Source: Actinomycetales bacterium (GTDB taxonomy: Bacteria > Actinomycetota > Actinomycetes > Actinomycetales > Microbacteriaceae). From it: a DNA stretch of 64,000 nt. Made by a program: the position numbers and the translations under genes. Positions within the stretch are counted from its first letter, which is position 1, and every line of letters starts with the position of its first letter. Below the pieces are notes generated by a model. That model ran no database searches, was not told the DNA's origin, and saw nothing but the letters and a program-made list of their open reading frames with translations. Location of the stretch: NCBI GenBank assembly GCA_015655415.1, contig JAATFB010000067.1:1-64000 (forward strand), given 5' to 3'. Below are positions 7,783 to 21,776 of the stretch, piece after piece.

Positions 7783-8802
7783 ATGTCGGACAACCGGGGC
7801 ACCATCGGCATCGAATGGTCCGTCGCTGCTATTCAGGTCGGGACACGTCATCGCCGTGACCACGGGGAGATGAGGCCCCTCGTCGCGTCGATTGAACGTT
7901 ACGGGTTGCTGCAACCGCTGACGATCACACCGGAAGGGTTCTTGATCTGCGGGGCTCGCAGGCTGGCGGCGATCAAGATTCTCGGGTGGAAGACCGTCCG
8001 CGTCTGGATTCGCTCAGGCCTGTCGGACCGGCTCGGACAGCTGTTGGCGGAGCAGGATGAGAACGTCCTGCACAAGCCCCTCACGCCCCTGGAAGCTACC
8101 GGTCTCTACCGAGAACTTAAGGCCCTGCTGGAAGAAGATGCGAAAAAGCGGCAGGAACTGACGCAGTTCCACGAGGGGCACAAGCCAGGCGAGCATGGTG
8201 GCGGAAATCTTCCTGCCCCAGCGACGAGCGCCTACGGGGAAAGCCGAGCCCAAGCCGCGGCGATGGTCCCCGGCGGGGTCTCCTACCGGACCTTCGACAA
8301 GATCGGCTACCTTGAAAAAGTCGCCGACGACGAAACCATGCCCGACGAACTACGTGGCCGCGCACAGGCTGAGTTGGAGCAGGTCAACGCTGGCGCTCCC
8401 GTGAGTCCGGCATATGAGCGGATTCATGGTGAGGTCGATGAGGAGTTCGCGAACAAGCAGGCCGAACTGCATCAGCTCGCCGAAGAAGCCCTCGCCCGCG
8501 TCAAAGCCGAACACCGGGCGAAACGGAAGAAGCTCCGCAAGCCTCCAATGGTCCGGCGTAGCGATGGGCCGTTCCCGACACGGGCGTTCGTGCTCACCTG
8601 GACGGAACTGACCGATTGGTGGGAAAGCTACGACCTCCACCAACTCGCCGTCGAGCTGACCGCCGAGCAAATCGACGACTTCCACACCGCCCTCACCGGC
8701 AGCAACACCTTCGCCAAGCAGCTCGACACCGAACGCGAGAACGTGCCCATCGAACAGCGCGGCAAGCCACTGAACCGCCGGGCGCACCTGCGCGCGCTCT
8801 GA
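7783..8802 (+). CDS. ParB/Spo0J-like N-terminal domain protein, copy 1
   Basis: The protein has 339 residues. Residues 37-76 (SIERYGLLQPLTITPEGFLI, then CGARRLAAIKILGWKTVRVW) carry the ParB N-terminal signature: G-x-x-x-P-L, G-x-R-R-L-A-A. A second block (LAEQDENVLHKPLTPLEATG) matches the ParB box III region that precedes the DNA-binding HTH. The C-terminal half is charged and coiled-coil-like. It starts 7 bp after the helical protein and is probably cotranscribed with it and with the recombinase downstream. Role inferred: partition, or replication/regulation of the integrated element. Confidence 0.75.
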   Translation: MSDNRGTIGIEWSVAAIQVGTRHRRDHGEMRPLVASIERYGLLQPLTITPEGFLICGARRLAAIKILGWKTVRVWIRSGLSDRLGQLLAEQDENVLHKPLTPLEATGLYRELKALLEEDAKKRQELTQFHEGHKPGEHGGGNLPAPATSAYGESRAQAAAMVPGGVSYRTFDKIGYLEKVADDETMPDELRGRAQAELEQVNAGAPVSPAYERIHGEVDEEFANKQAELHQLAEEALARVKAEHRAKRKKLRKPPMVRRSDGPFPTRAFVLTWTELTDWWESYDLHQLAVELTAEQIDDFHTALTGSNTFAKQLDTERENVPIEQRGKPLNRRAHLRAL

Positions 8803-8853: not shown

Positions 8854-9069
8854 ATGTCCTCCTCCCGCACCACGCACACCGGTCGCCGCTTCACCGCTAC
8901 GCCGCGCCTGCGGGAAGAACCGGACATGGAACGCCTCGTCGCGCTCATCCTGCACATGGCTGATCAGCTCCATGCCGAGCAACAGCATCACGACCGTGCC
9001 GATGAGACCGGCACGAATGAGGAAGGAACCGACGATGACGCTCTTACTGCCCACACCAGCCACGGTTGA
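8854..9069 (+). CDS. Small histidine/acid-rich protein before recombinase
   Basis: A 71-residue frame starts at the ATG at 8854; a GTG at 8815 would extend it. It contains EEPDMERLVALILHMADQLH and then a hydrophilic tail rich in H, D, E and T. Its 3' end overlaps the recombinase start by 35 bp in another frame, which is common for small accessory genes coupled to recombinases. I recognise no domain. The hydrophobic helix could mediate dimerisation. A recombination directionality factor is one possibility, unsupported by motif. Confidence 0.4.
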   Translation: MSSSRTTHTGRRFTATPRLREEPDMERLVALILHMADQLHAEQQHHDRADETGTNEEGTDDDALTAHTSHG

Positions 9070-11257
9070 TGAGGCACCTGCCTTCACTGCGGTGACCTAT
9101 CAGCGGGTCTCGACGAAGGAGCAGGCCGCGAAGGGTGGCCGGGATGAGGGGTTCTCGATCCCCGCGCAACGCGAGGCCAATACCCGCAAAGCGCAAGCGC
9201 TCGTTGCGCGGGTGGTTGCGGAGTTCGTCGACGCCGGTGAATCCGCCCGCTCTGCCGACCGACCGGATTTGAAACGCATGCTCGACTACATCAGCAGTCA
9301 TCAGGTGACGTATTGCATCGTTCACAAGGTCGACCGGCTCGCCCGCAACCGCCTCGACGACGTCGAAATACACCGGGCCCTCATAGAAGCAGGCGTCACC
9401 CTGGTCTCTGCCACAGAGAACATCGACGAGACCCCCTCCGGAATGCTGTTGCACGGGATCATGTCGTCGATTGCCGAGTTCTACTCCAAGAACCTCGCCA
9501 CCGAGGTGACCAAGGGTCTCACGCAGAAGGTCGCCACCGGCGGAACCCCCATGCGCGCACCCATCGGGTATCTCAACGTCCGCAAGCGCGACGAGCAAGG
9601 GCGTGAATACCGCACCGTCGAAGTGGACCCGGAGCGGGCACCGTTCATCCAGTGGGTGTTCGAGCAGTACGCCACGGGCGAGCACACCGTCATCGACCTC
9701 TTCCAAGACGCAACCGCACGAGGCCTAGTCACCGTGCCGACGCCGCAGCGCCCATCCGGACCAGTCGGGCGCTCGACGTTCTTCAAGATCCTGCGCAACC
9801 CCTACTACATCGGGCTCGTGCCCTACAAAGGTGCAACCCACCCCGGCACCCATGAGCCGCTGATCGACGTGGCGACGTGGCAGCGCGTGCAAAGCCTGCT
9901 GGATACCGCGAAGGAGGCTCGCGCGAGGAAGCGCACCTACGACCACTACCTGAAAGGCAGCCTGTTTTGTGGGGCGTGCGGGTCGCGGATGCAGCTCGAT
10001 CTCCCGAAGAACAAGCAGGGCATCCGCTACGCCTACTTCGCCTGCACCGGACGCAGGAAACGCACCTCCGGTTGCACCCGCCGAGCCGTCCCCGTTGCAG
10101 TCGCGGAACGCCTTGTCGCGGACTGCTACTCGCGCATCTCGATCAGCGAGACTCAGTACGCGGATCTCGCGAAGCAGGTTGAGGCCACGTTCGATGAGCG
10201 CTTCGCCGCTCGCTCCGATGAACTCCCAGAATTGACCGCGAACCGGCGTCGGCTCGAAGACGAGTCCGACAAGATCCTGGCCGCGCACTTCGCCGACGCC
10301 ATCGACCTCGACACGTTGAAGCGTCACCAAGACCGCATCCGCGCAGGCCTCGCAGACATCGACCGCCGCCTCGCCGCCGAACACGACCACGATCAAGGAC
10401 CCCGCAAGCAGATCGCCCGCGCTTTACGGCTCCTCGTGGACTGCCAGCAGCTCTACAACAGCACCGACGCCCAAGGGAAGCGGCTCGCGAACCAGACCTT
10501 CACGAACGGCATCAACATCGACGAAGACGAAGAAGCAGCAACGCTCCGCCTATCGGAGCCATTCACCGTCGCAACAAGCCACCACACCCATGTCAGGCAT
10601 GTGACTACGTCTGAAATTGTGGAAGCCACGCGACAACCTTCAAACCCTCGCTCGACAACAGAACGCCTGGTCAGAGCGGTCGGCCGAGTCCGGGCTGGTG
10701 CTGTGCGTGGGGCTGAGACGTCGACCGTCGTTGATGTTCGCGGGCAGACAGCGCACTATCGGACGCGCCGCGTGCTGGCACCGGCTGAGGCCGATGCCGT
10801 CGTTCAGCGGTTCCGTGAGGGTGAGACGATCATCGCGATCGCCCGCGATCTGCAGGTGGATCGTCGTCGGGTTCGTAGGTTGCTGTATGAGTGCGGGGTG
10901 GCCGCGCCTCCGGTGAGGCTCACGGCGGCGCAGATCGAACATGCGGCGGTCATGTACTGCTCTGGGTCTTCCCTTGCCGATGTGGCGGCGCGCTTGGGCG
11001 TGAGCGCGATGACGATCCGACGCCGACTGGTCGAGCACGGTGTTGAGATCCGACCCGGCGTCGGTGGCCGCGATCACTATGTCACTTCCGGACGGTTGTC
11101 GGAGCACGTCGATAGAGTTATGGAGTCCGAGCGAAGAGAGGGACACTATGGCACTGACTACCTCATTGGCGGGTCGGGTTCGCAACACGAGCCTTCCCAA
11201 GAGTCATGCCCTCCTGCCCCTGCTGGAGGCGGTGGTAAATGGGCTCCAAGCGATTGA
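9035..11257 (+). CDS. Large serine recombinase (site-specific integrase)
   Basis: The protein has 740 residues. The resolvase N-terminal domain (about 17-165) has catalytic Ser26 in TYQRVSTKEQ, plus SIPAQRE, KVDRLARN and the E-helix. A recombinase domain (APIGYLNVRK ... RNPYYIGLVPY) follows, then a zinc ribbon with Cys312, Cys315, Cys337 and Cys347, a coiled coil, and an unusual C-terminus with two tandem HTH motifs (VVQRFREGETIIAIARDLQV and SLADVAARLGVSAMTIRRRL). The ATG at 9035 follows GGAAGGA. It would integrate or excise the element. The final roughly 35 codons run into the next gene, a 110-bp overlap, so the natural C-terminus may have been altered by an insertion. Confidence 0.9.
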   Translation: MTLLLPTPATVDEAPAFTAVTYQRVSTKEQAAKGGRDEGFSIPAQREANTRKAQALVARVVAEFVDAGESARSADRPDLKRMLDYISSHQVTYCIVHKVDRLARNRLDDVEIHRALIEAGVTLVSATENIDETPSGMLLHGIMSSIAEFYSKNLATEVTKGLTQKVATGGTPMRAPIGYLNVRKRDEQGREYRTVEVDPERAPFIQWVFEQYATGEHTVIDLFQDATARGLVTVPTPQRPSGPVGRSTFFKILRNPYYIGLVPYKGATHPGTHEPLIDVATWQRVQSLLDTAKEARARKRTYDHYLKGSLFCGACGSRMQLDLPKNKQGIRYAYFACTGRRKRTSGCTRRAVPVAVAERLVADCYSRISISETQYADLAKQVEATFDERFAARSDELPELTANRRRLEDESDKILAAHFADAIDLDTLKRHQDRIRAGLADIDRRLAAEHDHDQGPRKQIARALRLLVDCQQLYNSTDAQGKRLANQTFTNGINIDEDEEAATLRLSEPFTVATSHHTHVRHVTTSEIVEATRQPSNPRSTTERLVRAVGRVRAGAVRGAETSTVVDVRGQTAHYRTRRVLAPAEADAVVQRFREGETIIAIARDLQVDRRRVRRLLYECGVAAPPVRLTAAQIEHAAVMYCSGSSLADVAARLGVSAMTIRRRLVEHGVEIRPGVGGRDHYVTSGRLSEHVDRVMESERREGHYGTDYLIGGSGSQHEPSQESCPPAPAGGGGKWAPSD

Positions 11258-13187
11258 TGCGCGCTTCGGTTCGGACGTGGGGCAGGGGCACTTGCGAGTC
11301 ACGGTCGAGCGTAGCGGGCAGGACGAGTTTGACTTCGGTCCTGCTGGTCCCGGGCGTGCAGCTCTGAAGCCGATAGTCGGGTTCAGCGTCGAGGACAACG
11401 GTGTGGGCTTTACCTCAAGCAATATGAATTCGTTTGAGACGCTGGATAGTGACTACAAGGCGTCGATGGGCTGCCGGGGGGTTGGACGTCTGCTTTGGCT
11501 CAAGGCGTTCGACAAGATTTCGATTTGCAGCGCGTACAAGGATGATTCCAGCGCTCTTCATGCACGTCAGTTCAGGTTTTCCATCGACCGCGAAGTTGAG
11601 CACGATGAAGAACCAGAAGGCTTCACCGACACCGGTGCGGTAGTGCGCCTCGACGGGTTCAAAGAATCCTACCAGCGGAGCGCTCCGAAGACCGTCGAGG
11701 CTATCGCCCGCGAAATATTCGAGCACTGCATCTGGTACTTCTTACGACCGGGCGGAGCTCCCGAGGTATCCGTGGTTGATGAGGAGACCGTCTCCCTGAA
11801 CAAGCTGATGGAGGAGTTCATCTTCTCCGAGCTCCCAAGGACGTCGATCGACGTCAGGGGCAAGAAGTTCGACATGGTCAACCTGTGCCTCCGGTCCTCG
11901 ACACGCAACTTCACGCCTCGGCTTTATTGGTGCGCGGCGAGCCGAGTCGTCACGGATGAAAACCTCACTGGCAAGGTCCCCGGCCTATACGGAAGGTTGA
12001 AAGACAAGTCAGCGGTCGAGTTCACGTACGTCTGCTATCTGTCGTCCGACTATCTCGATATGCACGTTCGCGCTGACCGAACTGATTTCGATATCAGCGA
12101 ACGTGTCGCAGGCACGACGTTAGGAGAGGACATATCCCTGGAAGATATACGTTCCGGTGTGCTGGAAGAGGTCGAACGAATCCTCTCTGACTCCCTCGCA
12201 GCGGCCCGTGACGAGGGTAAGGCGCGAGTTAACGACTTCGTGAGCAACCATGCGCCGCGATACCGCCCAGTCCTCTCTCGGCTTGAGTCACTTGGTGTGA
12301 CCGTGGACCCCTCCATCAAGAACCCAGATCTTGAACTTCTGCTGCACAGCAACTTGCAGAAGCTTGAGGCCGAAGCCATCGCCGAGGGTCAGGCTGTCTT
12401 CGCCGAGGCCGGTTCCGCTCCCCTGGAGGACTATCAGGAACGGCTGGCCCGCTACCTGGATACCGTCAATGACATCAACCAGTCAGACCTTGCAGCCTAC
12501 GTCTCCCGTCGTCGAGTCATCCTTGACATCTTGTCCAAACTCATCCGATCTAGCGAGCACGGCAAGTACAGCCGAGAGGACGCGATTCACTCTCTGCTTA
12601 TTCCCATGCGAACCGACTCGAACGACCTCGGCACAGATGCATCGAATCTGTGGATCATCGACGAACGGCTCGCATTCCACGATTACCTCGCTTCCGACAA
12701 GACACTCAAGAGTATGCCGATCACCGGTTCTGAATCGACGAAGGAGCCGGATATACTTTCAACGAAATTGATCGACACGCCGGTGTTGACCGCCGAGGGT
12801 GAGACGTTGCCGTTGCCATCCATCGTCGTGGTTGAGATCAAGAGACCGATGCGTAACGACGCAACCGAAGACAAGGACCCGATCCTCCAGTCACTCGACT
12901 ATGTGAAGCGGGTCCGGGCAGGCGGTGTCCTAACAGCTTCGGGACGTCCGATCCCAGCTTCTCAGGAGTCGCCCGCGTTCTGCTACATCGTGGCCGACCT
13001 CACCCCTACGCTCGTGAGCAGATGCGAGTACGCGAACCTCCGTCGAACCCATGATGGCCTCGGCTACTTCGGCTTCAACGAATCTGCCAAGGCATACATA
13101 GAGGTGATGTCCTTCGACAGGCTCGTCAATGCTGCCACAGAGCGCAACAGGGCATTTTTCGACAAGCTAGGGCTACCATCCAGCTAG
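11148..13187 (+). CDS. GHKL-type ATPase with PD-(D/E)xK-like C-terminus, putative defence protein
   Basis: The protein has 679 residues. The N-terminal Hsp90/MutL-like ATPase fold shows an N-box (LLEAVVNGLQAI), a G1 box (VEDNGVGF, D-x-G-x-G) and a G2 loop (MGCRGVGRLLWLKAF). A middle region with long helices (EEVERILSDSLAAARDEGKA) leads to a C-terminal strand SIVVVEIKRP near residue 560, resembling the E-x-K half of a PD-(D/E)xK nuclease core, with LQSLDYVKRV as the following helix. The ATG at 11148 has a good GAAGAGAGGG site. The N-box position requires this start even though it overlaps the recombinase. Such stand-alone ATPase-nuclease proteins occur in defence islands; anti-phage action is inferred. 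Confidence 0.75.
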   Translation: MALTTSLAGRVRNTSLPKSHALLPLLEAVVNGLQAIDARFGSDVGQGHLRVTVERSGQDEFDFGPAGPGRAALKPIVGFSVEDNGVGFTSSNMNSFETLDSDYKASMGCRGVGRLLWLKAFDKISICSAYKDDSSALHARQFRFSIDREVEHDEEPEGFTDTGAVVRLDGFKESYQRSAPKTVEAIAREIFEHCIWYFLRPGGAPEVSVVDEETVSLNKLMEEFIFSELPRTSIDVRGKKFDMVNLCLRSSTRNFTPRLYWCAASRVVTDENLTGKVPGLYGRLKDKSAVEFTYVCYLSSDYLDMHVRADRTDFDISERVAGTTLGEDISLEDIRSGVLEEVERILSDSLAAARDEGKARVNDFVSNHAPRYRPVLSRLESLGVTVDPSIKNPDLELLLHSNLQKLEAEAIAEGQAVFAEAGSAPLEDYQERLARYLDTVNDINQSDLAAYVSRRRVILDILSKLIRSSEHGKYSREDAIHSLLIPMRTDSNDLGTDASNLWIIDERLAFHDYLASDKTLKSMPITGSESTKEPDILSTKLIDTPVLTAEGETLPLPSIVVVEIKRPMRNDATEDKDPILQSLDYVKRVRAGGVLTASGRPIPASQESPAFCYIVADLTPTLVSRCEYANLRRTHDGLGYFGFNESAKAYIEVMSFDRLVNAATERNRAFFDKLGLPSS

Positions 13188-13216
13188 AAACACAAAGCGC
13201 GCGGAATAGATCCGCT

Positions 13217-13939
13217 TCATGTTGACGTGTCGTCGGATATTCGCGCGACGAACGCCGCGAACTCCTCAGGCTGCGCGTATGGCATTACCGCCCAGTGCAG
13301 GTCCTCCACCGAGTCGACCAATGACGAGTCAGAAGCATCTTGCTGCCGCGTGTGGTCCTCGATCAGGTGCATCTGGATCACCTGGGCGGCGCGTTTGATG
13401 TCAGCTTCGACCTCACCAGCGGGAACGTGAAGCGGTGACGTCAACGAACCACCCGAGCGATCGACGTAGAACCCCGCCTGCTTGTCGAGGTTGCGTTGCC
13501 TAGCGGTCACCTCGAACGTCTCCAGGTCGGCAAGGCTGTAATACTCGTTCCGCCGGGAGGCGTCCCAGAACCCACCCAACCCGGATGCGAACTGCTCGGC
13601 AACCTGGAGTTTCTCGGCATGGGGCCGGCGTGTGGTCTGGAGCCCTTCGGGCACCATGATGGATTCCGCCGGGCGCGGTGTCATCCCGTACAGGCCGAGC
13701 GGCGCGGTCCACTCCCACTCCGCCGCCGTGTACAGCCAACGCGCCTTTGCTAGTTCTTCCATCGCGAGAACCACAAGAGCCTGCGCACGTCCAGGACTCT
13801 GGTGCTGGGCCAGCACAGCAGCGTCCTCGACTAGCGCTACAGCGTTGGCCATCAGTGTCTTCCACCACTGGCGTGCGAACTCCGCGCTGATCTCCTCAAG
13901 CTGCTCCTGTGCCACGAGACCATTATGTCTTGCACGCAT
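13217..13939 (-). CDS. AbiV family abortive infection protein
   Basis: This is a 240-residue all-helical protein. The segment LMANAVALVEDAAVLAQHQS followed by ALVVLAMEELAKARWL is the AbiV/HEPN_AbiV signature, with A-L-x-L-A-x-E-E-(L/I)-(G/A)-K as its core. AbiV of Lactococcus blocks phage development by binding the phage protein SaV; the target here is unknown. I chose the ATG at 13939, but a GTG at 13915 is also possible. It converges on the GHKL ATPase gene, with 29 bp between stops, so the two are not one operon but form a compact cargo block between two recombinase tails. Confidence 0.75.
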   Translation of the reverse strand: MRARHNGLVAQEQLEEISAEFARQWWKTLMANAVALVEDAAVLAQHQSPGRAQALVVLAMEELAKARWLYTAAEWEWTAPLGLYGMTPRPAESIMVPEGLQTTRRPHAEKLQVAEQFASGLGGFWDASRRNEYYSLADLETFEVTARQRNLDKQAGFYVDRSGGSLTSPLHVPAGEVEADIKRAAQVIQMHLIEDHTRQQDASDSSLVDSVEDLHWAVMPYAQPEEFAAFVARISDDTST

Positions 13940-13987
13940 TGCAGGCTTCAGGCTCCTCAGCGCAAGCGTTGCCCACCGAGATCTCAT

Positions 13988-14158
13988 GTGCTGACGGAGT
14001 ACCAGATCGAGCGCGCCGCCGACCTCTACCGGGGAGGGCCGTCTCTCGCCAACGTCGGAACCGAGTCCGGGGTGACCGGCATGACGATTCGCCAGCACCT
14101 TTTGCCGATCCGGCCTCGGCAGGGCTGGGAGAGGCGTTTGGACGCTGAGGAGGCGTGA
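13988..14158 (+). pseudogene. HTH tail of another serine recombinase
   Basis: LTEYQIERAADLYRGGPSLA, then NVGTESGVTGMTIRQHLLPI and RPRQGWERRLDAEEA, aligns with the extreme C-terminal HTH of the recombinase at 9035-11257 (LTAAQIEHAAVMYCSGSSLA, then DVAARLGVSAMTIRRRL). Only this HTH and tail remain, and the frame upstream has no recombinase features. It is probably the 3' end of a second, older recombinase gene displaced by the ATPase/AbiV block or by a nested insertion. The first codon given is a GTG that may not be used. Confidence 0.55.
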
Positions 14159-14207
14159 TCGGCAGGCATCACGCACCTGACGGTCACATCCGTCGGGAGG
14201 TTCGATC

Positions 14208-14996
14208 ATGCCGTTCTTTGGTCCGCGTGTCGCGCATGGCGAGGCTGGCTCGCTGGGGCTGTCGGTGAGCTATGTCGGTCAGGCCGCCGATGAGAGCGGC
14301 GGGTGGCGGTCCCGGTTCCTGTACAGGGTCGACGGCCCGCCGGGTGCGTCTGCGTCGACGTTCGTCGGCAGCGACCTGTACTCAGGGGTCTCGGCGGAGA
14401 CGACGGCTCGGGAGATGTTGCAGTCGCTCGCGTCGTTCCTCGCTGCGGCAGGCGAGCGGTACGCGACGGGTATGTCGGCGCCGGACGCCGACTTCCCGGA
14501 ATGGGTCTACGAAGCCGGCTATCTGAACAGCGACGAGCTGTCGCTGCTCGCCGAGGGGGCGGACGAGCCGGGTGAGACGCCTGCGATGCGGGTCGACTAT
14601 GTGTCGATCGTCTTCCAGGAGGGCACCGAGGCGGATCAGGCGCTGGCGATCCTGGACGAGGACGGCCCGAGCGCTGCGGTCGCGCATCTGGCGCAGTGGG
14701 ACTACGGCGAGGAGACCGAGATGGCTGCGCGCGAGTACGGGCACGCCTATCCCGAACCGCCCACCGGTCGGGACGACCGCAGCCATGTTGAAGGCGACTA
14801 CGTGCTGGCATGGAATCTGCCGCTGGGTCATGTGAGCCTCGTGCGCCGGGTCGAGGTTCCCGTCCCGGCGGAAGAAGCACCACGCCCCGCCAACGTCGTG
14901 TCGCAACCGCCCGTGAATCGGAGTCGCGCGGTGGGGTCGGCCACTCCGCTTGCAGCCAAGCCGTCGAGCGGGGAACGGGGCGCGCCGAGCCGGTGA
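14208..14996 (+). CDS. Conserved mobile-element protein, unknown
   Basis: This is a 262-residue acidic protein with a good GGGAGG site before the ATG. Central segments such as STFVGSDLYSGVSAETTARE, EWVYEAGYLNSDELSLLAEG and VSIVFQEGTEADQALAILDE look globular. The last 60 residues are a proline/alanine-rich disordered tail. There is no membrane segment or catalytic motif. Its stop lies 9 bp from the stop of the convergent relaxase gene, which fits the accessory genes next to MobF relaxases in actinobacterial elements. A role in mobilisation or fertility regulation is only contextual. Confidence 0.65.
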   Translation: MPFFGPRVAHGEAGSLGLSVSYVGQAADESGGWRSRFLYRVDGPPGASASTFVGSDLYSGVSAETTAREMLQSLASFLAAAGERYATGMSAPDADFPEWVYEAGYLNSDELSLLAEGADEPGETPAMRVDYVSIVFQEGTEADQALAILDEDGPSAAVAHLAQWDYGEETEMAAREYGHAYPEPPTGRDDRSHVEGDYVLAWNLPLGHVSLVRRVEVPVPAEEAPRPANVVSQPPVNRSRAVGSATPLAAKPSSGERGAPSR

Positions 14997-15005
14997 GGTG
15001 AGGCG

Positions 15006-18000
15006 TCAACGGCCGAGCGGGTCGCGTCCCTGCGACCGCTCGGCCGTTTCCGTCGGTCGTGCCGTCTTCGTCGTGGCGAGTTGCTGCGCACGGCGAAGCG
15101 CGGCGTCGGCCCGCTGGTGGTCGATCTGCTGGAGGATGCTCGCAGGCTTCGGACCCAGTGGGTCGGTGCCTGTGATGCCGTACCGGTCGCGGTAGGCGGC
15201 GATCGTGGTCGTGGCTCGCCACCACCGTGCGGTCTCTCGGGCGTCGGCCGGGAGCGGGCCAAGACGGCGAGTCCACGCCACGCCGGTTGCGACGTCGGTG
15301 TGCGCGAGGGCGTTGGCTCGTTGCTCGATCGCCTGCCGCAGTTCGGTGAGGGCCTGGCGCATGTCGGCGGGCATCGGCCCGGTGGCCTCGGGGATGAGCC
15401 CGGCGATGTAGCGGGCGGGCGAGGCAGCGCGGCTGCCCACGGAGCGTGCGTGGGTGAGCCGTGTGATGCGGCTGCGGATCAGTCCGGCGATGTCGTCGGC
15501 GTGGTCGAGTCCTCCGGCACGGATGACGGCGGTGAGCACGGCCTGCGGGCGGTGCCCGTTCGCCTGGACACGGCGGACCTCGGCGACGAGCGACCCGTAG
15601 GAGTCGCTGGCGAGCGTGTCGTCGAGCAGCGCCTCGGGCAGGCCTGCGCCGGTGAGCAGGGCCGCGACATGTTCGGCTTGCGCGGCCTGCGCGATGGTCT
15701 CGTACTGGTCGCCCAGGTGTGGGATCGAGGACCAGACATCCTGTTCGGCGGTGATGGTCTCGTGCGCCGACTTCTCGGCGCCCTCGTGGCCGATCACGCC
15801 GTTGAGGATCGAGTGGACGGTCGTCTCCTCGTCGTCCTGCTGGTGGCGTTCGAGGTGCGCCTGGTCGGTGGCGACGTAGGCGATGTTGCTTCGTCTGCCG
15901 CGGGTCATCGCGACGTAGAAGCTCTCCCGAGTCATCGAGGAGGAGTGCACGATCGCGTGCGTCGTGTCCACGGTCGATCCCTGCGCCCTGTGCACCGTGA
16001 GCGCGTAGCCCAGGTCGACGCTGTCGGCCACGTAGGCGGCAGGCAGGACGATGCTGCCGGCGAACCGGGAATCCGCGCGCCGCACCGTCACCGACCCGTC
16101 CTCGTGGGTGGCGGTCACCCGCCAGCGGTCGCCGTTCTTCACCCAGCCCCGCCCGGTGCTGAACCGGCGGTCGTTCTCCCGGGTGATGACCAGATCCCCC
16201 TCACCCGCCTGGTTCCCGTCGCGCAGCAGCACCCCGCCCGGGGCGACCTCGCCCGCGAGGATCAGGTCGCTGCGGGCCCGCGCGTTGAGGCTGGTGACGA
16301 TGTCGAGGGTCTCGGCGACCAGGATGCTCGTGCGCCCGGCGGCACGATCAGAGCGCCACGCCTGGTAGGCGGCATCCAGCATGTCCTCGAGGTCCCCGCC
16401 CACCAGGCGCTCGTGCTCGTCGTAGGCGGCCAAGACGTCGGTGTGCCCAAGCCGAAGCCCCAGGGACGCGGACTTCTCCCAACCGGCGGTGAAGCGGCGG
16501 ACATCGGTCAGCTCTGGGGCGTCGCCGCGTTCGCGTGCCAGGAGCCCGAACGCGCCGCCCGCGTCGACGCTCGCCAGTTGCGCCCAGTCGCCGACCAGCA
16601 GCAGCTTTGCCCCGCTCTCGGCGGCGTGCGCGGCAAGCTGGTCGAGTGCGAGCGTCCCAGCCAGGGACGCCTCATCCACGATGAGCAGCTGCCCCGCAGC
16701 GAGGTTCCAGACGCCCCGGTGGTGCTCGTACAGCCACTTGCTGGTGTTCTCCGTCGGGATTCCGAGGTCCGCGGCCAGCACCTCGGCTGCCGCCGCCGAC
16801 GGTGCCAGGCCAGTCACGCTACCGGGTCCGTGCGCGGCCTCCCAGGCCCGGCGCAGCGCACCGAGCGTCGTCGTCTTGCCCGTGCCGGCCGGACCGACGA
16901 GCAGGTCCACGACCCGGCCGGAGACGGCGATCTGCTCCACGACGCGGCGCTGATCGGACGAGAGCACGACACCGCCCGGGCCGCGCATGCGGACAGCCCG
17001 TCCAACCGTGGTCAGGTCGACCGACGGCGCCGTCGTGTCGGCAGCAAGCCTGAGGAGGCGATCCTCGGCGTCCAGCAGCGCCGTCGAGGAGAACACCGTG
17101 TGGTGGCGGGGACGAAACGCGCTGCTGCCGTCGGCGCGGGTGAACGCCGCCGGTGTGTTGACCAGTTCCGGCGGGGTCAGCCGCAGCGAGGCAGCCTCGG
17201 CGGCGTCGACGATGAGGCCGACGACCGCTTCCCTGTCCTCGGCTGAAGCGAACCGCAGCCCCATCGTCTGCCGGGACGCCTCGGCGTGCAGGTTCCAGCG
17301 CCGCCACGTCGACCGCTTCACGCCGACCTGCGCCACGACGACCTTACCGATCCCCCGCAGGTCGTCCAACGGCAGATCGTCCGCACGCAGCAGCGGCGGC
17401 CGGGGGTTGTGCGCGGTCAGGTACTGCGCCCAGGTCGGCGCGTCCTCGCCGAGCACGGCCGTGGCCCGCTCCCGCCACTGGACAGTGAGCTCGGCCAGCG
17501 AGTGCAGCGTCTTGTCCGGCCGAGTCGACAGCGTCGCCTGCTGCCGCAGGCGGATCACCGTCTGCGCCGACGGCTGCCGGCCATGCTCTGCCGCGTACCG
17601 CTCGATCAGCCGGTCCTTCTCCGCATCGATGTCGACCGACCGCGACGAGAACTCTCGGATCAAAGCCTCCGGCACTCCGGTGATCTCCCACGCCGGATTT
17701 CGATCGCGACCCCGGTCCCTCTGCTCCCATCCAACCCCGAGCATTCGTGCGAGACCGTCGGCCAGCACGGCGTTGTAATGCTCCGAGATGGCCACAACCG
17801 CGGCGTGCAGTGGTCGACCGTCTAGTGTGCGCCACTTCCCATCCGTGGCCTGCACCCGGTTGGCGATCACCACATGCGTGTGCAGCTGCGGGTCCGAGGC
17901 CCGCGAGTCCCAATGGTCGAACGCCGTCGCCACCACACCGAGCACGTCGATCTGCGCGACACCGTTCGCCCCGACCCGGGTCGCAGCCACCTCACGCTCG

Positions 18001-18542
18001 ACGAAGTCCAGCACCTCCTCGATCGCCGCGTGATGCGCCTGAGCGATCAACGCCTGCGTGCCGCCGTCTGCCACCGCCCACACAGCCGAGACCGACTTCG
18101 GCACACTGAACGTGAAGTCGAAGCCCGCCACAGTGCGCCTGTGATCCCTGCCGAGTTCGTCGGACTCGATCTGCGCGATTTGCTCCGCCCGCTCGGACGC
18201 GCCCAATCCAGTGGAGAGTTCGCGCACGCGCGCCGCGATCCGCTCGCTCGTGGTCTTGTAGCGGTAGCTCGCTCGCCCGAGCGGCTCGCCCGTCTCCGGG
18301 TCCTGCATCTGGCCCAGCAGTCTGCGCAGCTGCCGCTCGGTCACGGGATCGCCAGCGTGGAGCGTGCCGCTCGCGAGACCTGGCAGGCCCGAACCAAGCC
18401 AGCGGCCGGGCGGTGTGCCTTTCTCCGCGTAGTAGCGCGTCAAGGGCGAACTCATCGAGCGGTCGCCGTCGCCGACTACGACCGACTGAAGCAGGTACCG
18501 GAACCCAGCACCCGCACTCATCACCCGCATGGAGACTGTCAT
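15006..18542 (-). CDS. MobF relaxase / helicase (TrwC-TraI type)
   Basis: The protein has 1178 residues. MTVSMRVMSAGAGFRYLLQS is the canonical start, so the ATG at 18542 is preferred to the GTG at 18566. The relaxase domain has a tyrosine pair at 37-38 (TRYYAEKG) and the metal-binding histidines FDHWD (H210) and QLHTHVVIANR (H221, H223). The helicase domain has Walker A GPAGTGKTT (about 550-558), Walker B IVDEASLAG (about 631) and a UvrD-C2-like motif (LGYALTVHRAQGSTVDTTHA). It would nick oriT, pilot the strand and unwind DNA. It is intact, and probably works with the transfer genes at 57-64 kb although 29 kb of cargo separates them. Confidence 0.95.
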   Translation of the reverse strand: MTVSMRVMSAGAGFRYLLQSVVVGDGDRSMSSPLTRYYAEKGTPPGRWLGSGLPGLASGTLHAGDPVTERQLRRLLGQMQDPETGEPLGRASYRYKTTSERIAARVRELSTGLGASERAEQIAQIESDELGRDHRRTVAGFDFTFSVPKSVSAVWAVADGGTQALIAQAHHAAIEEVLDFVEREVAATRVGANGVAQIDVLGVVATAFDHWDSRASDPQLHTHVVIANRVQATDGKWRTLDGRPLHAAVVAISEHYNAVLADGLARMLGVGWEQRDRGRDRNPAWEITGVPEALIREFSSRSVDIDAEKDRLIERYAAEHGRQPSAQTVIRLRQQATLSTRPDKTLHSLAELTVQWRERATAVLGEDAPTWAQYLTAHNPRPPLLRADDLPLDDLRGIGKVVVAQVGVKRSTWRRWNLHAEASRQTMGLRFASAEDREAVVGLIVDAAEAASLRLTPPELVNTPAAFTRADGSSAFRPRHHTVFSSTALLDAEDRLLRLAADTTAPSVDLTTVGRAVRMRGPGGVVLSSDQRRVVEQIAVSGRVVDLLVGPAGTGKTTTLGALRRAWEAAHGPGSVTGLAPSAAAAEVLAADLGIPTENTSKWLYEHHRGVWNLAAGQLLIVDEASLAGTLALDQLAAHAAESGAKLLLVGDWAQLASVDAGGAFGLLARERGDAPELTDVRRFTAGWEKSASLGLRLGHTDVLAAYDEHERLVGGDLEDMLDAAYQAWRSDRAAGRTSILVAETLDIVTSLNARARSDLILAGEVAPGGVLLRDGNQAGEGDLVITRENDRRFSTGRGWVKNGDRWRVTATHEDGSVTVRRADSRFAGSIVLPAAYVADSVDLGYALTVHRAQGSTVDTTHAIVHSSSMTRESFYVAMTRGRRSNIAYVATDQAHLERHQQDDEETTVHSILNGVIGHEGAEKSAHETITAEQDVWSSIPHLGDQYETIAQAAQAEHVAALLTGAGLPEALLDDTLASDSYGSLVAEVRRVQANGHRPQAVLTAVIRAGGLDHADDIAGLIRSRITRLTHARSVGSRAASPARYIAGLIPEATGPMPADMRQALTELRQAIEQRANALAHTDVATGVAWTRRLGPLPADARETARWWRATTTIAAYRDRYGITGTDPLGPKPASILQQIDHQRADAALRRAQQLATTKTARPTETAERSQGRDPLGR
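15008..15048. terminator. Bidirectional hairpin between convergent genes
   Basis: Arms 15008-15025 and 15032-15048 pair over 17 bases with one bulged G and a 6-base loop. The right arm ends in TTTCC on the plus strand, so it can terminate the 14208-14996 gene. It sits inside the last codons of the relaxase gene, whose tail RDPLGR is encoded by the stem. Confidence 0.6.
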
Positions 18543-18707
18543 ACTCTGAAGGTGGGTCGGGTCCACGTCTCCAGAGCATTATGAACGGCAGAATGTCCGC
18601 GGGGCATGGTTGGTCGTTTGCAGCCGTCGAGCGGCATCGGCTGAGATAATCATGATGGACGCGGCTCGACACGACGATGAGAGGCCATTACCAATGGAGA
18701 TTGGACA

Positions 18708-21700
18708 TTGAATTCACCGGCTCAACTGGCCACGCAGATTCGCTTCCACCTTGACACCCTTGGAGAGACGAACTCGCATCATCCTTTTGAGCAACTCTGT
18801 CTAGGGCTGACCCGGCGCCGAATCGTCAGCAACGTCATTCCTGCGACCGGCCCTGTCTCCGCAGGCGGTGACGGAGGACGGGATGCCGAGAGCTTCTGGA
18901 GCGTGCTAGCGAAAGAACTGCCGGAAACGTCGTTTTTCACCGCGCTTGCGACGGAGGACGCGGTGGTGCTCGCGGTCACTGCGCAACGAGATAACGTGCC
19001 GTCGAAGATCCGTTCAGATCTCTCGAAGATGTGCGGCAAGGGCGAGCCTGTCGACAGGGTTATCTACTTCACGATCACGCCCGTAGACACTGCCAAGCGG
19101 CACGACCTTCAGGCTCATGCTCGCGAGGAATACTCGGTCGGTCTGGAGATCTGGGACGCGCAGGCGATTGCGAACGAGATCGCGTGCCCGGACCTTTTCT
19201 ATCTCGCGGTCGAATACCTGCATGTACCGTCCTCCCTTGCCCCCGAACGCGAGGAAGCTGACAGTGACCTGCCCGATTGGTATGTTGACACCCGTGATCG
19301 GTGGCGCACCCGCTCGGCGCACGCAGGGTCGATGGGCGAATTCGTCGATCTGCGCGAGGCCATCCGGTTTTCTAGCCTGAATCTGGAGGCGCGCGCCGAC
19401 CTACCGGACTGGCTCGAGTCCGCTCGTGTCCTGCGCAACGCTGCTCAGGATGATTCGAACATGGTGGACCGCATCGACTACGAGATGATCATCGCAACCG
19501 GTCTCGGGCTCAACACGCTAAGGCCTGTCGATGGAACGCTTCGTGCCTACTTCGATCGGACTGCGTCAAAGCCGACGGACCTCGGTGCACTCGTCGACGC
19601 CATCACCCTGCTCCGTCTCACTCAGGCGACCCAGCCTAGAGGAGCGACTACGATCACAGTCAATGAGGTCGCAGCATGGGCCGACGACCTTGAGAACGTG
19701 CTTGATCGAGAACTCGAAGCGGTGCCTGGCGAGAACGCTCGTGTGAGCCTGCTGTCGACGGCCGCAATCCTCGCCCTCGGTCCCCGCGAGTTCACACCAG
19801 GCGAACTCAGTACGGTCCCGATTGCCGGCCCGAAGATGTCCGACGTCTATCAAGAGGTAAGCGCGGCCAAACGCGAAGGGCGTCCGCTACCGTCCGCGCC
19901 GCAAGATGCCCAGCTGCGAGATCTCAACGCCGGCATGGCCCACCTGGTCAACCTAGTAGCGGCGCTGCCTTCCGCGCCGATGGCACCGCTCGACCAACTG
20001 ATGACGATGTTCGACCTCACCGCACCCGCCCTCATCGATCACCCCGACTACTTTGACATAAGGAACGCGCTCGATAGGGCGACAATCGAGCGCGCGGGAA
20101 GGACTGCCGCGGGTGAACGCGCCCAGAGCCGAGCCATCGCTCTGCTCCAGGCATACAGGCCACTAGACGCGCTCCACGAAATCCACGCCGCAAAACTCAA
20201 CTGGCTCAACGGAGATGCCGCCGAAGGTGCTGCGATCATGATGCTCCTCGCCTCCGACGTGTACAGCGATCTCGGACTCCCTCTGGCCGCGAAACAGTAT
20301 GCAATGAGCGCGGCATCGATCGCCAAGGCAACCGGCGACCCACGCCTGGCGGTCCTCATGGCGCGCGGCATTATCCTCACAGCTACCTACGAGCACCAGG
20401 CTGGTCAGTGGTTGGCCGCGACCCGCACGTTCCAGGTCGGGATCTGGGCGCAATCGCAACTCGCTGATGATCCGTGGAACTTCGAACGCTACCCGTACTT
20501 TGAGAACATGTTGGTCGACCAGTGCCTCATCATCCGAACCGCGACGGCGCTTCGCCCCGCGCTGCTGCCGACACTCGAGTCCGTTGTCCAGTCCACGTAT
20601 CTCGATGAGCTCGTCAAACCGATGCTTGCGGCGGCCGCCGACGTTGAGCTGTTGGATGAGTCAGCTACGATCGATTCCGCAGACCGTTCCGGCCTTGGAC
20701 GACCATTCTCCGATACGGGTCCCGTCCGCGAGTACAGCTGGTCGGCGTTCGGAAACGTGTGGGTCGTCACCACCCCAAACGATCGGGTCCACGTGCTCGC
20801 GGCCGAGCGGTTCGTCGCTGCAGCGCAGATCACTCTGGGGGACCTCGCCGCGGAAGACCTACTCCTGCTGCCAGGCGAGATTTGCATCGAGATCGAAGTC
20901 TCCGACAAGCCGGTTGAACCCCATTCGGTGTTCCTTCCAGCATCAGAGCGCGATCGAGGCGAGAACAGACACCGGGTGCTGCTCACTCGCGCCGGACGAC
21001 TGACGCCAGATGCTGACCAGCTTGAAGTCGCCTCCGCAACGTTTCAGGTGATCGTCACCCAGTCCCTCCTCGGTACACCAGCGCTCAAGGCCGTGATGGA
21101 ACGAACATTCGAACGAGGCCTCCCTCACATGCTCACCTGCGTGCGCCCGTACGACGAGCTCGTCGACATCCATAAAGATGAGTTCTACGAGGAGATCCGC
21201 GGACTCTCGCCTGGCGTCCTCGATCCTGACCGCCCACGGTTACCACAACCTGGGCCAGGACTGACGCAGAGGCTTCCCGAACACGCCACCGCCTACGATC
21301 ACGCCGCCTCTCTCGACGCGATCGAAGGACGATACGAGATGCTGCACCCGCCCGTGCGGCTAACCCTACCGAGGCTCGCGTCACAGCCCGGCTTCAGGGA
21401 GCTTGTGACCAAGCTCCGCACTGACGGATGGAAGGACTGGCACCTCCTCACTGCAGTGGCAAACATCGTGGTCAACAAGCGTGCCGCGCACCGCGGACTA
21501 AACATGACAACGTCGATCACCCAGGCCGATATGAACAGGTTCCGGTCACTCATGGAGGAGGAAGAACGACCCGACGACCCCGAAACGCCAGCAGAAGCGT
21601 TCACCGAGGACGAGATGTGGTTCCACCTCGCCAACGCTGCGAGGGCAACTGCTGGGCACTGGGGCCTGGAGCTCCGCCTCGACCGCTTCGAGCCTCACAT

Positions 21701-21776
21701 CTTCCTCAACGTCCTCGGCGACCGATTCAACTACTGGAACGACGACGTCGAACATGCACCGATCCTTCCGGCGTGA
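18708..21776 (+). CDS. Large protein with N-terminal restriction-endonuclease-like domain, putative defence
   Basis: The protein has 1022 residues. Residues about 24-110 look like a PD-(D/E)xK nuclease: FEQLCLGLTRRRI, then GGDGGRDAE (catalytic D in GGRD), then VVLAVTAQRDNVPSKIR, where the usual E-x-K is V-T-A-Q, a variant seen in related uncharacterised nucleases. The middle (about 450-560) is repeat-like helices (AIALLQAYRPLDALHEIHAA and on) suggesting TPR. The C-terminus has no known motif, and no P-loop is visible. The start is a TTG; upstream ATGs are out of frame or stop at once. It stands alone next to the relaxase, divergent from it. A role in defence or plasmid exclusion is inference. 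Confidence 0.7.
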   Translation: MNSPAQLATQIRFHLDTLGETNSHHPFEQLCLGLTRRRIVSNVIPATGPVSAGGDGGRDAESFWSVLAKELPETSFFTALATEDAVVLAVTAQRDNVPSKIRSDLSKMCGKGEPVDRVIYFTITPVDTAKRHDLQAHAREEYSVGLEIWDAQAIANEIACPDLFYLAVEYLHVPSSLAPEREEADSDLPDWYVDTRDRWRTRSAHAGSMGEFVDLREAIRFSSLNLEARADLPDWLESARVLRNAAQDDSNMVDRIDYEMIIATGLGLNTLRPVDGTLRAYFDRTASKPTDLGALVDAITLLRLTQATQPRGATTITVNEVAAWADDLENVLDRELEAVPGENARVSLLSTAAILALGPREFTPGELSTVPIAGPKMSDVYQEVSAAKREGRPLPSAPQDAQLRDLNAGMAHLVNLVAALPSAPMAPLDQLMTMFDLTAPALIDHPDYFDIRNALDRATIERAGRTAAGERAQSRAIALLQAYRPLDALHEIHAAKLNWLNGDAAEGAAIMMLLASDVYSDLGLPLAAKQYAMSAASIAKATGDPRLAVLMARGIILTATYEHQAGQWLAATRTFQVGIWAQSQLADDPWNFERYPYFENMLVDQCLIIRTATALRPALLPTLESVVQSTYLDELVKPMLAAAADVELLDESATIDSADRSGLGRPFSDTGPVREYSWSAFGNVWVVTTPNDRVHVLAAERFVAAAQITLGDLAAEDLLLLPGEICIEIEVSDKPVEPHSVFLPASERDRGENRHRVLLTRAGRLTPDADQLEVASATFQVIVTQSLLGTPALKAVMERTFERGLPHMLTCVRPYDELVDIHKDEFYEEIRGLSPGVLDPDRPRLPQPGPGLTQRLPEHATAYDHAASLDAIEGRYEMLHPPVRLTLPRLASQPGFRELVTKLRTDGWKDWHLLTAVANIVVNKRAAHRGLNMTTSITQADMNRFRSLMEEEERPDDPETPAEAFTEDEMWFHLANAARATAGHWGLELRLDRFEPHIFLNVLGDRFNYWNDDVEHAPILPA

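Follow-up and report, generated by a model that had tools for sequence, protein, structure and literature searches.

A mobile Shedu-like GHKL nuclease gene with a candidate PafBC-type DNA damage promoter in part of the Actinobacteria

The gene described here lies at positions 11148 to 13187 of a stretch of 64,000 nucleotides (nt) from an Actinomycetales bacterium of the Microbacteriaceae (assembly GCA_015655415.1, contig JAATFB010000067.1, positions 1 to 64,000), which was analyzed over its full length and is called the window. It encodes a 679-residue protein with an N-terminal GHKL ATPase and a C-terminal PD-(D/E)xK nuclease. This protein is likely to be a mobile anti-phage nuclease that acts as a single protein, is of the paraMORC3/VcSduA kind, and is switched by PafBC in part of its actinobacterial branch. 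With somewhat less assurance, the comparison of sequences favors the view that this standalone Shedu-type nuclease is a gene of the PafBC regulon in part of the Actinobacteria, with a damage sensor doubling as a phage alarm and with the switch carried between hosts of several families. The kind of protein is known, defense having been shown for VcSduA in Vibrio cholerae and Escherichia coli; the promoter is the new, testable part.

Domain architecture of the 679-residue protein

11148..13187, + strand: GHKL ATPase, S5 domain, helical linker, and PD-(D/E)xK nuclease (paraMORC3/VcSduA-like), 679 amino acids (aa), from alignment and model
11148..12077, + strand: GHKL ATPase and S5-like domain, residues 1 to 310, boundary read from the secondary structure of the model
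12138..12542, + strand: linker of long helices, residues 331 to 465, from DSSP of the model
12555..13184, + strand: PD-(D/E)xK nuclease domain, residues 470 to 679, with E477, D535, and E563xK565, from alignment and fold

The open reading frame (ORF) is uninterrupted, and homologs at genome loci, on plasmids, in a phage, and on viral contigs show that it is not a chance frame. E27/N31, D83/G85/G87, and G108/G111/G113/R114, which we take to be the GHKL motifs, are invariant in 34/34 and 56/56 aligned sequences, as are the nuclease residues E477, D535, and E563-x-K565. The initial annotation, which had proposed an Hsp90/MutL-type ATPase with an E-x-K nuclease, is borne out by this intact frame, by the invariant motifs, and by the predicted PD-(D/E)xK fold.

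The full-length model has a predicted local distance difference test (pLDDT) score of 85 and a predicted template modeling (pTM) score of 0.71. Its GHKL and S5-like module aligns with Hsp90, SMCHD1, and MORC2/3/4 at Z scores of 18 to 21 over about 270 to 310 residues, and structural alignments to MORC, Hsp90, and SMCHD1 cover model residues 1 to about 350 to 360. The likeness to these proteins lies in the GHKL and S5 module; to our knowledge, none of them carries a nuclease domain. Because GHKL matches crowd the results of a structure search with the full-length model, the C-terminal nuclease domain was folded alone (pLDDT, 82; pTM, 0.81). When this domain was compared with 994 chains by a second-look aligner, SduA from E. 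coli (8ps4 and 8ps5) ranked first and second, with Z scores of 9.8 and 9.7, and Shedu from Bacillus cereus (8ti8 and 8ti9) ranked third and fifth, with a Z score of 8.7. The C-terminal domain as modeled thus has a PD-(D/E)xK nuclease fold, with SduA as its best solved match. Both SduA from E. coli and Shedu from B. cereus resemble it in fold and, as far as we know, lack a GHKL ATPase.

Profile searches of the 34 aligned members retrieved HATPase_c in 11/34, HATPase_c_3 in 6/34, and SduA_C (PF14082; DUF4263, the Shedu domain) in 1/34 (E = 6.4e-4); the 679-aa protein itself has no match to SduA_C at an E value of ≤0.1. The Shedu assignment follows from the second-look alignment, the single SduA_C match, and the published work on VcSduA. 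Several results pull against it. None of the Pfam, NCBIfam, and PADLOC models matches the 679-aa protein at an E value of ≤0.1. Foldseek alone, the other check suggested for the C terminus, returned nothing significant for the nuclease domain (best E value, 0.18), and SduA came first by the second-look alignment. A Z score of 9.8 to SduA is moderate, and that of 8.7 to Shedu ties with nicking and repair endonucleases at 8.2 to 8.7. Neither the sequence profile of the whole family nor that of its nuclease domain gave a convincing PDB match. An mza/MutL system, which had been named as a near concept, was rejected, as no PADLOC, Pfam, or NCBIfam model matches the 679-aa protein and PADLOC across the 34 members gave one weak match in one member (TmtA, 0.0027).

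Relationship to paraMORC3 and VcSduA

The paraMORC3 proteins are described as a sporadic group, some of them standalone, that combines GHKL, S5, and a restriction-fold domain with E-D-ExK residues (Iyer 2008, PMC2292703), and they were originally reported as prevalent in proteobacteria and bacteroidetes (PMC2292703). The 679-aa protein and its relatives share the GHKL and S5 domains, the C-terminal restriction-fold E-D-ExK, and the sporadic occurrence, a likeness set here by these described features, and differ in that the present set is actinobacterial. Proteins like VcSduA, the GHKL-Shedu nuclease of V. cholerae assigned to Shedu type I-D (Adams 2025, PMC12137116), had earlier been named paraMORC3 (PMC12137116). 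VcSduA is reported to protect E. coli against Drexlerviridae and V. cholerae against vibriophage X29; the mutations E27A and K557A each abolish protection, so that both active sites are needed; and its growth curves are consistent with direct phage restriction (PMC12137116).

Like VcSduA, the 679-aa protein has an N-terminal GHKL ATPase and a C-terminal PD-(D/E)xK nuclease encoded by a single gene. Its ATPase glutamate is residue 27, the residue changed in the VcSduA E27A mutant, and its nuclease lysine is residue 565, compared with 556 to 558 in the Salinivibrio, Vibrio, and Acinetobacter homologs and K557 in VcSduA. This comparison, made solely on published residue numbers and on the Vibrio and Salinivibrio plasmid homologs (48 to 49% identity), is a further point on which the assignment is exposed. 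The 679-aa protein differs from VcSduA in belonging to an actinobacterial branch with a PafBC-type promoter. The first reading of this DNA found no named system for the ATPase; the protein fits paraMORC3/VcSduA, a known kind with published defense, and by analogy probably carries out the same defense as VcSduA.

A candidate PafBC-type promoter upstream of the GHKL gene

11097..11118, + strand: candidate PafBC-type DNA damage promoter TGTCGG-N10-TAGAGT, 51 nt before the ATG, matching the published consensus

The promoters published for PafBC read TGTCGG-10N-TA-3N-T (PMC8151990) and tTGTCRgtg-8nt-TannnT (PMC5656591), and positions 11097 to 11118 are the sole exact match to TGTCRGWG-N8-TANNNT in the 64-kb window. 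Alignment of the upstream regions of relatives revealed a TGTCRG...TANNNT island ahead of the ribosome-binding site. Across 49 loci, some with split genes, three located on plasmids, and three on viral contigs resembling copies of genome loci, TGTCRG-N10-TANNNT occurs exactly, 49 to 55 nt before the start, in 12 (window included) and with one mismatch, at 50 to 55 nt, in 8 more. This places 20/49 loci in register within one mismatch, and not 21, because the motif of locus L023 sits at 129 nt. Order-1 resampling repeated 1,000 times gave a mean of 0.015 exact matches (maximum, 1) and of 0.62 within one mismatch (maximum, 5), and the motif written backwards was found in the 49 upstream regions zero times exactly and once within one mismatch. 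At the 31 loci with called genes, the motif precedes 10/31 target genes versus 6/599 other genes (Fisher P = 1e-10), P values that overstate independence, since the loci are related, and that to this extent tell less for regulation than they appear to. Three relatives fetched later comprise one with an exact motif at 49 nt, one with a single mismatch at 50 nt, and one without the motif.

It is unlikely that the same nuclease is not damage-switched and that the motif is an ordinary inherited promoter and no target of PafBC. In 19 aligned upstream regions, all of them rows picked for carrying the motif, the TGTCRG positions are 58 to 100% conserved and TA...T is 100% conserved, whereas most neighboring bases are near 40%. 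The spacing of the motif is constant and agrees with the consensus in print, and a sigma-70-type scan found no −35/−10 pair at the site. In favor of such an ordinary promoter, members of the Streptomyces branch keep a TAGGGT-like −10 element without the TGTCRG element, and their genes are presumably expressed.

On a tree of 44 rows, from which L161 and any copies that were partial, split, or duplicate were excluded, 11 rows carry the exact motif, 8 carry it with one mismatch, and 25 carry neither. The exact rows comprise Dermabacter, Actinomycetaceae with Micrococcaceae, the clade of the window with an Acidimicrobiaceae member, and a further clade of Amycolatopsis, Enemella, Tomitella, and Arthrobacter. 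Rows without the motif are clustered on the tree, with 8 changes against a shuffled mean of 14.6 (0/500 as low). The exact TGTCRG motif is absent (0/59) from 59 other upstream regions, drawn from other phyla and from eight members of the Streptomyces branch and Nocardia. As the motif is missing both there and in the Streptomyces branch of the tree, the putative switch belongs to part of the family only and is not tied to how the protein itself functions. A LexA control on the same 59 regions, run with a box consensus that we assume to be the accepted one, was negative, with three box types not enriched and one exact Gram-positive box, at L095, versus 0.12 expected.

Exact PafBC-type motifs also lie 29 nt before L026:4375-7968 and 5 nt before L011:3197-5236, two genes that look restriction-system-like by eye; both occurrences could be due to chance.

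The PafBC activator in host genomes

PafBC is reported to be activated by single-stranded DNA and to act through a −26 element (PMC11804915), and its targets in mycobacteria are described as mainly DNA repair genes (PMC5656591, PMC8151990, PMC11804915). The promoters of that regulon and the one studied here are alike in TGTCRG-N10-TANNNT; the difference is that the GHKL nuclease is a candidate defense target. The host genome of the window (G000), which is 88% complete, encodes HTH_PafC (E = 2e-33), and the ORF ahead of it in tandem reads as PafB by eye; no Pup ligase was found in the 88% of the genome that is present. HTH_PafC also scores above the cutoff in 11/11 other genomes with an exact motif (E values of 8e-16 or better). 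Among actinobacterial genomes without the motif, 6/7 have HTH_PafC and the seventh, L031, is below threshold, and the gammaproteobacterium L044 has no HTH_PafC match. Within a clade that bears the motif, L031 alone lacks it, and this single case may reflect a joint loss of promoter and activator.

In the host genome, a copy of the motif with one mismatch lies 71 nt upstream of recA. Four exact TGTCRGTG-type copies were found there, versus zero for the reversed control: one lies 29 nt before a RarA-type ATPase, one lies 153 nt before a DNA polymerase III delta subunit, and the other two precede ORFs without an evident repair role, all identified by eye.

The reading of the motif as a PafBC-responsive promoter has to be set against a series of results that weigh against it. 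ClgR has likewise been proposed to bind promoters of the TGTCRG-N10-TANNNT type (PMC5656591). The motif was tested after the same upstream regions had been inspected. It occurs in 0/10 rows of the Streptomyces branch, although the three motif-less genomes tested from that branch score above the cutoff for HTH_PafC. The exact rows are weakly clustered on the tree (8 changes; shuffled mean, 9.9; 38/500 as low), and damage-type boxes are not enriched in the 59 other upstream regions. The HTH_PafC model matches 5/14 control genomes, E. coli included, and is therefore not specific alone, so that weak matches mean little. The genome-wide signal in the host is weak, because a wider pattern, TGTCRGNG-N8-TAGNNT, is found 5 times versus 2 in the reversed control.

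Proposed mechanism and significance

By analogy with VcSduA and with other proteins of the GHKL type, binding of ATP would close the dimer around DNA, and the closed dimer would license the C-terminal nuclease, which would cut invading DNA and let the host survive. In part of the actinobacterial branch, PafBC would be activated by single-stranded DNA arising from phage replication or repair and would then recruit the housekeeping polymerase to the promoter of the GHKL gene. An attack on DNA may in this way raise the nuclease along with recA and the repair genes, and the gene would travel alone with its promoter.

The promoter is a candidate link between the actinobacterial DNA damage response and phage defense. 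As of 2023, no WYL regulator is reported to have been described as regulating phage defense in Actinobacteria (PMC10693628), and the present gene is a direct candidate for such WYL-regulated defense. Literature searches for PafBC with Shedu or with phage defense, together with the top matches of broader searches, retrieved no published link between PafBC and an actinobacterial defense gene. The hosts that bear the motif range from Actinomycetaceae to Pseudonocardiaceae. If the reading is true, one and the same nuclease would be raised by phage infection and by antibiotics that damage DNA. This would be relevant to the combined use of phages and antibiotics and to the way in which a cell limits the cost of a protein that cuts DNA.

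Distribution and mobility of the GHKL gene

A tblastn search revealed relatives in 58 plasmid records (52 with at least 80% coverage) and in 1 phage record, and pattern scans found homologs at 49 genome loci and on 43 viral contigs, most of them near full length. The matched stretch is free of internal stops in 43/43 viral contigs, and several genome loci carry split or partial frames of the gene. Among the genomes of relatives, 7/199 match, with 4 near full length (own genome included) and 3 as fragments only. These scattered matches mark an accessory gene that is widespread but sporadic. In blastn comparisons of the window with the other loci, similarity begins at 11085 to 11097 at the earliest and ends no more than 1 base past the stop codon of the GHKL gene; the gene therefore moves with a leader of 50 to 65 nt.

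Annotated stretches around homologs were examined in 17 plasmids and 1 phage, and named defense genes were counted in 9/18. Type I restriction-modification genes stand beside homologs in Rhodococcus (twice), Vibrio, and Salinivibrio. The other defense neighbors are genes of the cyclic-oligonucleotide-based anti-phage signaling system (CBASS) type in Acinetobacter, SIR2 and XamI in Manganitrophus, an Abi protein in Thioclava, AbiE genes in Hymenobacter, and TIR in Agrobacterium. In the remaining 9/18, the contents are toxin-antitoxin genes, transposases, a protein with a HEPN domain, a restriction gene lying farther away, or nothing that stands out; that half of the stretches lack a counted named defense gene tells against a defense role. 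The proposal of a defense cargo, made from the letters of the window, is supported.

A repair or plasmid-maintenance nuclease, with no part in defense, is very improbable. Many carriers are plasmids, partition genes lie within about 8 kb of the homolog in two stretches, and the promoter is of a repair type, all of which would suit such a role; it accords poorly with the sporadic occurrence among the 199 genomes, with the split frames at several loci, with the defense neighbors, and with the anti-phage activity reported for the tested homolog VcSduA (PMC12137116).

The split GHKL frames in L035, L037, L040, L047, and L048 reflect either the decay of an accessory gene or sequencing error. A family member in phage PJN03 (L063; ON245412.1) lies beside an integrase; its annotation as an N-acetylmuramoyl-L-alanine amidase is apparently mistaken.

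AbiV and other neighbors

13217..13939, − strand: AbiV (HEPN) abortive-infection gene, convergent with the GHKL gene, start chosen at ATG 13939
15006..18566, − strand: MobF relaxase, conjugative-element context (TrwC, 2e-88; MobF, 2e-72)
7783..8802, + strand: ParB-like protein, element context (ParB_N, 1.4e-4; parB_part, 5e-8; both under the curated cutoffs)

The neighbor of the GHKL gene had been named as AbiV, and this identification holds, with matches to PF18728 (HEPN_AbiV; E = 1.5e-30) and TIGR04498 (E = 5e-19). That the two genes form one defense system swapped as a unit is the least probable of the alternatives. They are convergent and 29 nt apart, and among the loci compared, an AbiV relative (36% identity) lies near the GHKL gene, about 1.3 kb downstream, only in L028 and L030. 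The DNA shared with relatives ends at the GHKL stop codon and spans only the GHKL gene and its leader, which marks AbiV as a separate neighbor; the initial proposal of a joint module is not supported. The closest plasmid AbiV (71%; NZ_CP014942.1) lies in a record that is without a GHKL gene and is not among the four Rhodococcus records that have one, and VcSduA is reported to act as an independent system (PMC12137116). Judged from its sequence context, AbiV is an independent defense gene that shares a variable site, next to conjugation genes, with the GHKL gene.

Neighbors were also scanned at 34 loci, where 102 of 134 predicted genes were passed on, mainly short ones having been dropped by hand; with L032:17612-20677, the set comprises 103 genes, hand-selected and not an unselected sample. 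PADLOC identified type I enzymes (3 members), MADS, PsyrA, UzuA, ShosA, and PDC candidates among the matches listed, and in Pfam, ResIII (5) and the housekeeping GTPase YchF (4) are the commonest among the matches listed, many neighbors being housekeeping. Within the first 25 families (of 140 in PADLOC and 82 in Pfam), no defense partner occurs in more than 5/103 of these hand-selected neighbors.

In L028 and L030, at about 12052 to 15663, the AbiV relative (36% in L028) is on the minus strand beside a serine recombinase, a layout like that of the window. The occurrence of YchF in 4/103 neighbors (e.g., L029:8556-9659) may indicate a preferred landing site beside ychF.

Recombinase tails and a second candidate defense gene

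8978..11257, + strand: serine recombinase running into a double helix-turn-helix (HTH) tail, out of frame over the GHKL start; start putative, ORF open from 8837
13988..14158, + strand: HTH tail remnant, second HTH only, within the right segment 13925 to 14158

The upstream ORF is a serine recombinase (PF00239; E = 5e-29), and the right HTH segment (13925 to 14158, + strand) matches its tail with 49% identity over 49 columns (E = 6e-6). Recombinase HTH tails had been proposed on both sides of the block; HTH segments do flank both sides, and a recombinase is attached to the left one only. Three chromosomal relatives of the recombinase (575 to 609 aa) align up to residues 529 to 549 and are without the HTH segment, a comparison limited to these three, others with longer frames existing. 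Plasmid matches to the recombinase (P0003) end by residue 526 among the matches listed (30 of 331 records). The HTH segment of the recombinase (residues 583 to 705) occurs elsewhere as separate ORFs of 162 to 216 aa. A plasmid search with the right-hand HTH peptide found nothing, and no long, well-matched direct repeat marking an insertion was found. A cassette swapped between recombinase tails is a possible reading of this arrangement, to which the lack of direct repeats and the relatives without the HTH tail gave no support. The separate double-HTH ORFs (162 to 216 aa) related to the recombinase tail were seen in L154, L155, L156, L157, and L158.

The gene at 18708 to 21776 (+ strand) is a candidate for a second defense gene. 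Its 1022-aa product has no Pfam, NCBIfam, or PADLOC match and has relatives in 18 plasmid records at up to 47% identity, one of them annotated as "dsDNA nuclease domain-containing." In L032, a relative of this gene with 73% DNA identity lies about 5.6 kb from the GHKL gene.

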